NCBI RefSeq assembly: GCF_008831305.1
Contig: NZ_ML708614.1
Location: 124,001 to 188,000 of the forward strand
Length of the DNA stretch: 64,000 nucleotides
Direction of reading: 5' to 3'
DNA from: Kocuria coralli
GTDB taxonomy: Bacteria > Actinomycetota > Actinomycetes > Actinomycetales > Micrococcaceae
Each line of letters starts with the position of its first letter. The first letter of the stretch is position 1. The translations under genes were made by a program, and so were the position numbers. Shown piece by piece: positions 8,730 to 10,578 of this stretch. The notes beneath the pieces were generated by a model. It was given only the letters and a program-made list of their open reading frames with translations. It did not search any database and was not told the DNA's origin.

Positions 8730-8808
8730 GGCGACCGCGCTGCGGCCAGGCCCCGTTACGAACGTCACGGAGCACCGGAGCGCGGATCCCGTAGACTGTT
8801 CCGGTCGA

Positions 8809-8921
8809 GTCGAAGGGGAGTAGTTCCACGCGCCGGTGAGGCGCAGCGGCCAGTCGACATACCGGATCTCTTGGAGGAGTCCCGGCTGGCCACCCGGCAA
8901 CGGGCGAACGAGACCTTCGGC
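8809..8921 (+). promoter_or_regulatory. yybP-ykoY family manganese riboswitch
   Basis: The element begins with an 8-bp closing helix: GTCGAAGG (8809-8816) pairs with CCTTCGGC (8914-8921) with one G-U pair. The family hallmark GGGGAGTAG follows at once (8815-8823). Then come a GCGCC/GGCGC hairpin (8830-8844), the conserved AGTCGACATAC segment, a CCCG/CGGG hairpin closed by a GCAA tetraloop (8893-8904), and the terminal signature CGAACGAGACC. This family senses Mn2+. It ends about 65 bases before the start of the ferritin/VIT transporter gene, so it should control that gene. A -10-like TAGACT (8792-8797) sits at the right distance to start a transcript at the first helix. Confidence 0.9.
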
Positions 8922-8987
8922 AGGGCGCACGCCCGTTCACCCGATATCGCCGCGCATGATTCGCGCGTCGAGGACAAGGACTCCTCC

Positions 8988-10115
8988 ATGACTGATTCCG
9001 CAAGCCCGCAGCACGCCGCCTCCGCCGAGCCGAGCCCGGCCCAGATCAGGCGGTGGAACCGCTATCTGGCCGAGGAACGCGCCGAGGCCGAGATCTACCG
9101 CCGGCTGGGCGAGTCCAGCTCCGGGCGGCACAAGGAGATCCTGCTCCAGGTCGCCGAGGCCGAGGGGCGGCACTCCCAGTACTGGGAGGACAAGCTCGGC
9201 CCCCACACCCGGCCGTCGCCCCGGCCGTCGCTGGGCTCCCGGCTGCTCATCTTCCTCGCGGAGCACTTCGGTTCCGTGTTCGTCCTGGCACTGATCCAGC
9301 GCGCCGAATCCCGCTCCCCCTACGACAAGGACGAGGACGCCTCACCCGCGATGGCCGCCGACGAGGCCATTCACGAGGAGATCGTGCGCGCCCTGGCCAA
9401 CGACGGAAGGCAGCGGCTGTCCGGGAACTTCCGCGCCGCCGTCTTCGGCGCCAACGACGGCCTGGTCTCCAACCTGGCCCTGGTCATGGGCGCAGGGGCC
9501 ACCGGCATGTCCTCGACCATGGTGCTGTTCACCGGCATCGCGGGCCTGCTGGCAGGTGCGCTGTCCATGGGGGCGGGTGAATTCGTCTCCGTGCGCTCGC
9601 AGCGAGAGCTCCTGGACGCGTCCTCCCCCACGCAGATCACGCTGTCCGCGGCACCGCACCTGGACCTGGAGGCCAACGAGCTGGAGCTGATCTACCAGGC
9701 CCGCGGCATGACCCCGGAGGCGGCAGCGCACCGCGCCCAGGAGCGCCTGGGTCACCTCGACTGCGACTGCGACCCGTCCCTGTCGTTCAAGGACCCCGAT
9801 CCGGACGACGATACGGCGGAGCCCGACAATGTGGCCCTCGGCACCGACCTCGGCGCGGCGGCATCGAGCTTCTGCTTCTTCGCCTCCGGCGCCGTGATCC
9901 CCATCCTCCCCTACCTGTTCGGCATGGGCGGCGGCTGGGCGCTCGTGCTCGCCATGACGCTGGTGGGCGTCGCGCTCCTGGTGACGGGCGGCCTGGTCGG
10001 TCTGCTGTCCGGGGCTTCCCCCCTGCTGCGCGGGCTGCGGCAGCTGGCCATCGGCTACGGCGCGGCCATCGCCACCTACTTCCTGGGCCTGCTGTTCAAC
10101 GTGGCCGTGCTGTAA
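8988..10115 (+). CDS. Ferritin-like domain fused to VIT/CCC1-family metal transporter (MbfA-like)
   Basis: This 375-residue protein begins at ATG 8988 (AAGGA just upstream); longer in-frame reading would run into the riboswitch. Residues of about 15-135 form a rubrerythrin-like four-helix domain with di-metal motifs: EERAEAEIY, AEAEGRH (ExxH) and DEAIHEEI. From about residue 145 comes the VIT/CCC1 hallmark FGANDGLVSNLALVMG, then about five membrane segments. A cytosolic loop contains the acidic, Cys-containing stretch LDCDCD followed by DPDPDDD. VIT proteins move Fe2+ or Mn2+ out of the cytosol; the ferritin-like part senses or delivers the metal in MbfA-type proteins. The upstream Mn2+ riboswitch suggests Mn2+ export, which is inference. 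Confidence 0.9.
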   Translation: MTDSASPQHAASAEPSPAQIRRWNRYLAEERAEAEIYRRLGESSSGRHKEILLQVAEAEGRHSQYWEDKLGPHTRPSPRPSLGSRLLIFLAEHFGSVFVLALIQRAESRSPYDKDEDASPAMAADEAIHEEIVRALANDGRQRLSGNFRAAVFGANDGLVSNLALVMGAGATGMSSTMVLFTGIAGLLAGALSMGAGEFVSVRSQRELLDASSPTQITLSAAPHLDLEANELELIYQARGMTPEAAAHRAQERLGHLDCDCDPSLSFKDPDPDDDTAEPDNVALGTDLGAAASSFCFFASGAVIPILPYLFGMGGGWALVLAMTLVGVALLVTGGLVGLLSGASPLLRGLRQLAIGYGAAIATYFLGLLFNVAVL

Positions 10116-10509: not shown

Positions 10510-10578
10510 CAGCAACGAACCCTCGCGGGTGTCCCGCTTCAACGCATGAAGCGGGACACCCGCGAGGGTTCGTTGCTG
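10510..10578. terminator. Perfect 32-bp inverted repeat with 5-base loop, likely sucCD terminator
   Basis: Bases 10510-10541 are exactly complementary to 10547-10578, leaving the loop ACGCA. The hairpin lies 48 bases beyond the sucD stop codon and would fold on either strand. There is no T-run on either side, which is common in GC-rich actinobacterial terminators. The length and perfection of the stem are unusual for a simple terminator. A small mobile repeat is an alternative. Confidence 0.6.

Follow-up and report, generated by a model that had tools for sequence, protein, structure and literature searches.

The gene of interest in the 64,000-nt stretch of Kocuria coralli DNA analysed here (the window, which lies on contig C5 of the 3.43-Mb genome G000) encodes a membrane protein with a ferritin-like N-terminus and a VIT1 domain, and it is preceded by a leader with the features of a yybP-ykoY riboswitch (Table 1). 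The start codon is likely the ATG at 8988, as the alternative TTG at 8871 falls within the aptamer. All of the structural elements that a first-pass annotation had listed for the leader (an 8-bp closing helix, GGGGAGTAG, a GCAA tetraloop and CGAGACC) are in the sequence. Downstream, between the ferritin-VIT gene and a convergent sucD-like gene, lies an inverted repeat (10510-10578) whose 32-bp arms match perfectly around a loop of 5 nt; it is probably a two-way terminator.

Table 1. Features of the leader and the ferritin-VIT gene. Positions are those of the window; residue equivalences use X. oryzae numbering (PMC6754395), transferred onto the window leader within this analysis.
Feature	Position	Strand	Basis
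-10-like hexamer TAGACT, just 5' of the aptamer	8792..8797	+	TANNNT conservation
yybP-ykoY (Mn2+) riboswitch aptamer	8809..8921	+	fold, R1 105 bits, covariation
P1 closing helix, 8 bp, one G-U	8809-8816/8914-8921	+	sequence, fold
GGGGAGTAG	8815-8823	+	sequence
L1 5' strand GGGGAGUAG, equivalents of X. oryzae G8, G9, A10	8815..8823	+	GGGAGTA in 49/49 VIT leaders
P1.2	8823-8826/8906-8909	+	aptamer helix
P2	8830-8834/8840-8844	+	single-sequence fold only
P3	8848-8855/8884-8891	+	aptamer helix
L3 metal loop C-GACAUAC-C	8855..8863	+	[GA]TCGACA in 49/49 VIT leaders
L3 residues equivalent to X. oryzae A46, A48 (Mn-discriminating adenosine) and C51	A8857, A8859, C8862
Distal P3 hairpin strand GGAGGAGTCC, perfect complement of 8978-8987	8873..8882	+	sequence, shuffles, pairing probability
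P4 with GCAA loop, CCCG-GCAA-CGGG (8893-8904)	8893-8896/8901-8904	+	aptamer helix
CGAGACC	8909-8915	+	sequence
L1 3' strand GAGACC	8910..8915	+	GAGAC in 49/49 VIT leaders
AAGGACTCCTCC, Shine-Dalgarno-like AAGGA plus spacer, proposed to be sequestered by 8873-8882	8976..8987	+	sequence
Gene for 375-aa rubrerythrin/ferritin-like + VIT1 membrane protein (MbfA-like architecture)	8988..10115	+	Pfam, Foldseek

Architecture of the encoded protein

The MbfA/VIT-like architecture assigned in the first-pass annotation holds. The C-terminal part of the protein belongs to the VIT1 family (Pfam, 4.1e-54), and its membrane domain matches that of VIT1 in PDB entries 6iu3 and 6iu4 both by sequence (profile match, 5e-14) and by fold (Foldseek match of the protein model to 6iu4, 2.2e-5, with a model of modest confidence, pLDDT 72), although the solved VIT1 chain lacks the ferritin-like domain. 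This VIT1 is a plant vacuolar iron transporter. At a threshold of E 0.1, the N-terminal domain of all 24 relatives matches Rubrerythrin, with a best value of 1.9e-7; the match of the window's own protein, at 0.0043, falls short of the curated cut-off. Residues E30, E59xxH62, E107 and E126xxH129 are invariant in all 24 relatives. Ferritins are the nearest folds to a model of the N-terminal domain (pLDDT 86; Foldseek probability 0.99, with a weak E of 0.18), and in a sequence profile search of the PDB with the same domain designed proteins ranked first (2.6e-5), while a ferritin-like di-iron protein reached only E 0.7.

The N-terminal ferritin-like and C-terminal VIT1 domains are also the arrangement of MbfA from Agrobacterium and Bradyrhizobium, with which the window protein was compared by architecture. 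As described in PMC7762939, MbfA relatives are iron transporters, and MbfA itself is controlled by Irr, is reported to export iron and has ferroxidase activity in its ferritin-like domain, whereas the window gene has a putative Mn2+ riboswitch. A further difference from MbfA as described there is a palindrome that, in some relatives of the window's organism, is common to the VIT gene and an NRAMP region (see below).

The leader as a member of the yybP-ykoY class

The 126-nt fold of the window leader has a z-score of -1.60, with 13 of 200 shuffled sequences folding equally well, and GGGGAGTAG with at most one mismatch occurs in the window at chance level (15 found versus 16 expected). P2 is a 5-bp hairpin in this single-sequence fold and lies outside the covariance model described below. 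Since the fold alone barely beats shuffled sequences, the case for a riboswitch rests on comparison.

The first-pass annotation had proposed a search with the Rfam model RF00080 and had named the lack of a hit as an outcome that would refute its reading. RF00080 gave no match in the whole window at its gathering cut-off of 45 bits, which is a database threshold and not a defining feature of the class, and none in 8730-9100 up to E 10; its only match elsewhere in the genome was one of 10 bits, and the leaders of eight relatives were negative at E 10. The E. coli mntP leader is reported to be a Mn-sensing riboswitch (PMC9603457), yet as a control it scored 41.6 bits, also under the cut-off, and the E. 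coli alx leader was absent from the RF00080 matches at E 1. An actinobacterial leader before an MntP gene (L106) scored 31 bits. According to its printed alignment, the RF00080 model does not contain the closing helix P1. Since both E. coli leaders are missed as well, the negative result in the window is uninformative and no refutation, and RF00080 was rejected as the deciding test.

A covariance model, R1, was therefore built on VIT leaders alone, namely the 16 that turned up when 30 VIT loci of the family were examined. R1 matches two leaders outside its training set, those of E. coli mntP (31.9 bits, E 8.1e-6) and E. coli alx (23.1 bits, E 0.0014), its E-values being rough. Among 149 family genomes, 53 contain a total of 54 copies at E <= 3.2e-14, under strict filters that may lose weak copies, and the next matches among those listed, 13 in number, all have E 0.0266 or worse. 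At E 0.001, copies are present in 38 of 297 genomes of the order and in 35 of 396 genomes of the phylum.

Helices P1, P3 and P4 are conserved. Two-sided changes occur in 24 of 27 pairs, and 96.1% of cells are paired, in an alignment of 101 R1 matches that includes two sequences from E. coli and one weak 57-nt match. Fitting this alignment to the model biases it towards the model's structure, but none of 500 shuffles reaches the observed covariation, and the covariation score of 0.452 falls to 0.076 or less when the partners are slid by one column.

The metal site of the X. oryzae riboswitch comprises G8, G9, A10, A46, A48 and C51 together with a GAGACC strand, and an invariant L3 adenosine that binds Mn2+ by its N7 is a trait of the class (PMC6754395). 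Three metal-site motifs (GGGAGTA, [GA]TCGACA and GAGAC) are present in 49 of 49 VIT leaders (alignment A2), and the 7 VIT leaders inspected in addition all have them too. The commonest L3 loop of the VIT leaders, GTCGACATACT (38 of 49), also occurs in the non-VIT group, in 10 of its 49 leaders; L106, which precedes MntP, and L135, which precedes GDT1, are two of these. Loops without TCRACA are found, in the same set, in 8 of the 49 leaders of other genes and in E. coli alx, and in no VIT leader. The L3 or L1 strands are changed in L113, L118, L122, L123, L143, L147-L149 and L151 (aptamers at 1501), with GTCGCCA or a loop lacking a recognisable TCRACA as examples, and these leaders of other actinobacterial genes are candidates for a changed metal specificity.

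The window leader resembles the E. coli mntP and alx leaders in its L1 strands (GGGGAGUA and GAGACC), its L3 Mn adenosine, its closing helix, its P3 and P4 arms and its placement before a metal transporter gene. It differs from them in L3, which reads GUCGACA in place of the GUCAACA of E. coli mntP, in the ferritin-VIT gene behind it, in its lack of any RF00080 score and in a predicted pairing between distal P3 and the start region in the window's genus. Actinobacterial members of the class have been described in Corynebacterium glutamicum, where RF00080 leaders, one of them before terC, precede a different gene and scored 43.7-49.9 bits with the Rfam release used in PMC3890552. Judged by model, covariation and motif conservation, the leader is a genuine member of the yybP-ykoY class: an ordinary aptamer with an uncommon target gene.

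Distribution of the leader

A ferritin-VIT homologue is present in 148 of the 149 family genomes, and in 46 of these 148 a strong leader lies 66-230 nt before the VIT match. Besides these 46, the 54 strong leaders include two before a shortened VIT start (at a contig end in G082; in G133 the copy is broken) and six that have a different gene behind them. Of the six, Pfam was applied to L065, which precedes a gene for a Na/Ca-exchanger family protein adjoined by a DtxR-type regulator. The broken copy (L070, G133:C4:51000-55500) consists of a leader and a VIT gene ending after about 50 codons, and another contig of G133 carries a complete VIT gene that lacks a strong leader. No adjacent strong leader was found in the remaining 102 of the 148 genomes under the strict filters, by which weak copies may be lost.

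At 80 further VIT loci, the leader is present at 9 and absent from 71, with no match between E 8.9e-18 and 0.53. The nine carriers are Kocuria dechangensis, three Arthrobacter, Rothia kristinae, a Diaminobutyricibacter, a Frigoribacterium, a Microbacteriaceae MAG and a Pengzhenrongella. Rothia kristinae and Arthrobacter rhombi also occur in the family survey. The survey of ferritin-VIT genes that the first-pass annotation had called for found the same leader repeatedly, and two claims of that annotation stand: the class of the RNA, given the recovery of mntP and alx by R1, the covariation and the conserved motifs, and the linkage, with the leader directly before the ferritin-VIT gene in the window and in relatives. 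Since most VIT genes have no leader, the ferritin-VIT protein is not tied to the riboswitch.

Related leaders before non-VIT genes were examined with Pfam at nine loci, picked from 55 at which the following gene is not VIT or the frame is unresolved. They precede two MntP, three GDT1, one TerC and three Na_Ca_ex genes, one of the last being adjacent to a DtxR-type regulator gene.

A TANNNT hexamer lies 8-32 nt before GGGGAGTAG in all 54 VIT leaders inspected (46 from the family survey and 8 others); eight control windows placed 40-344 nt upstream contain it in 0 to 8 of the 54. With a -10-like box so regularly placed, the VIT message most likely begins with the leader. Another riboswitch, SAM-IV, was noted in two genomes of the family, where it lies upstream of the VIT locus (L020, 814-924; L030, 808-918).

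The literature searched gave no statement that yybP-ykoY controls ferritin-VIT genes, with a mention in Dambach 2015 or Price 2015 being possible, and no paper joining yybP-ykoY with VIT1. Papers on riboswitches, Arthrobacter and manganese offered nothing on ferritin-VIT control, judged by their titles.

A palindrome upstream of leaderless VIT genes

The leader is absent in five of eight sampled genomes of the window's genus. Four of these (G083, G103, G061 and G005) have the palindrome TTCGGNNNNCCGAAA upstream of the VIT gene, 51-90 nt before the VIT match (loci L006, L007, L008 and L009). In the fifth (G134, locus L004), even the closest site departs from the palindrome by at least 5 mismatches; before its VIT gene lies AAAGGGTAATAGTTC (1395-1409), which resembles a decayed aptamer start. 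A scan of the window's whole genome found no exact copy. Whole-genome scans of the four sister genomes found further exact copies only in G103 and G005, one in each (L244 and L245, around 1501), where they precede an NRAMP gene by 51 and 25 nt, respectively (Pfam Nramp, 4e-103 and 3e-102). In the window's own genome, no NRAMP gene was found in the window or in five other stretches of the contig that carries it. An ABC transporter gene runs the opposite way from the same gap in both G103 and G005, so the palindrome may serve this gene and not NRAMP. B. subtilis MntR represses uptake genes and activates exporter genes (PMC11275975), and an operator shared by the two kinds of gene would fit such a regulator; the palindrome may be an MntR-binding site.

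Sites with at most 3 mismatches to the palindrome precede 1 of 25 genes with a leader and 31 of 101 VIT genes without one, and they occur in 75 of 3000 random windows, which were drawn from the same loci and so include true sites. Leader and palindrome are negatively associated by Fisher's test (p 0.004, or 0.014 without the four motif-defining genomes) in a set that holds some species twice, but a tree-aware pair test gave no support for their exclusion (8 pairs, median p 1), and the idea that riboswitch and palindrome are mutually exclusive was dropped. Each of the two states changes at least 11 times on the VIT tree (FastTree). Similar sites were also seen before 11 of the 12 Microbacterium VIT genes of the set.

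Model for control of the ferritin-VIT gene

Riboswitches of this class are described as using Mn2+ to stabilise P1.1 against a competing downstream hairpin (PMC6754395, PMC11087558). Such a switch is predicted for many of the relatives, since the 3' strand of P1 pairs downstream, with no metal modelled, in 38 of 54 VIT leaders versus 20% of shuffled downstream regions, and in L043 this strand forms a terminator-like hairpin followed by a T-run. It is not predicted for the window leader (0.32).

The window leader may instead act through its start region. The sequence GGACTCCTCC (8978-8987) ends at the start codon and is perfectly complementary to GGAGGAGTCC, and the same 10-mer pair is present in the three sampled same-genus genomes that have the leader (the window's genome, G036 and G120). 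Such a pair arose in 5, 5 and 9 of 5000 shuffles of the three leaders, and its modelled mean pairing probability is 0.70, 0.998 and 0.82, the three sequences being related and so not independent. Across the 54 leaders, the start region is predicted to pair with the aptamer only modestly more often than in shuffles (15 of 54 versus 15.7%).

These observations, taken with the class literature, suggest the following model, in which the ferritin-VIT message would begin with an ON riboswitch, the direction being that reported for the class. Without Mn2+, the fold of the leader would block expression; in the window's genome and the two sister genomes, the distal P3 strand GGAGGAGUCC would do so by pairing with GGACUCCUCC, immediately 5' of the start codon. 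Once Mn2+ occupied the site between L1 and L3, P1 and P3 would be stabilised and the start region freed, allowing the ferritin-VIT protein to be made. The protein would then lower free Mn2+, and probably also Fe2+, by export, with the ferritin-like domain serving as a cytoplasmic metal-handling module. We infer each of the four central points of this model, namely Mn2+ as the ligand, the ON direction, the masking of the start codon and the export of Mn2+.

Substrate of the transporter

We consider it likely that a Mn2+-sensing ON riboswitch sits on the ferritin-VIT message and that the protein lowers free Mn2+, and probably Fe2+, by export; the most likely role of the protein is accordingly worded as that of a Mn2+-induced exporter or a balancer of Mn and Fe. 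The first-pass annotation had predicted Mn2+ export or a link between Mn and Fe balance, and this has the support of genomic context. Related leaders precede MntP, GDT1, TerC and Na/Ca-exchanger genes, the palindrome is common to the VIT gene and the NRAMP region in sister genomes without the leader, and MntP and GDT1 are nearly absent from the family, with MntP over the cut-off in 3 of 149 genomes and GDT1 in none of the 149. No match to Na_Ca_ex was found in the window's genome. On the other side, most VIT genes are leaderless, TerC, another family found behind yybP-ykoY, is present in 149 of 149 family genomes, and the window's genome has a second VIT1-family gene (L237, G000:C2:107132-107761), at which no R1 leader was reported. 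The ferritin-VIT protein is therefore not the sole candidate, and the argument for Mn2+ export is weakened.

A wider proposal is that, in the Micrococcales, ferritin-VIT is a main Mn2+ exporter, replacing the missing MntP and GDT1, and that its gene has repeatedly been swapped between the yybP-ykoY riboswitch and an MntR-like operator palindrome common with the NRAMP importer gene. This proposal is tentative, and we hold it with somewhat less than even confidence.

It is also conceivable, if unlikely, that the riboswitch senses Mn2+ and the protein mainly handles iron, so that an excess of Mn2+ would lead to the oxidation or removal of Fe2+ for the sake of the Mn/Fe ratio and not to the export of Mn2+. 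An iron handler would suit the di-iron ferritin-like residues (E, ExxH, E and ExxH) that never vary in the 24 relatives, the second VIT1 gene, and the iron export and ferroxidase activity described for MbfA (PMC7762939), but it fits less well with the near absence of MntP and GDT1 and with the fact that in two leaderless sister genomes the VIT palindrome recurs exactly at a single further place, next to an NRAMP gene. The last point is not decisive, since NRAMP proteins can transport Fe2+ in addition to Mn2+ and a divergent ABC gene shares the site.

Rather improbable is a change of ligand preference within the yybP-ykoY fold, towards Fe2+, say, or some other divalent metal, which would make iron the inducer of ferritin-VIT. 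Variants of the class with other metal specificities are to be expected according to PMC7266159, MbfA proteins are discussed for iron (PMC7762939) and RF00080 scores nothing for the window leader, all of which would agree with such a shift; the equivalent of the Mn-discriminating adenosine and the other core motifs are nevertheless kept in every one of the 49 VIT leaders, and the commonest loop of these leaders is shared with those before MntP (L106) and GDT1 (L135). Chance resemblance or a conserved RNA of some other kind, to which the lack of an Rfam match and the unexceptional single-sequence fold might point, is scarcely credible given the covariation, the recovery of the mntP and alx leaders and the 54 strong matches in 53 of 149 genomes; short of an alignment artefact behind the covariation, the present data exclude it.

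Implications

The actinobacterial Mn2+ riboswitches examined here score under the Rfam cut-off, so surveys that rely on Rfam will omit many of them. Ferritin-VIT proteins have until now been viewed as handling iron; RNA control links them to manganese homeostasis and makes their substrate testable. The presence of this leader suggests that, in these actinobacteria, the ferritin-VIT transporter helps to guard the cell against excess manganese.
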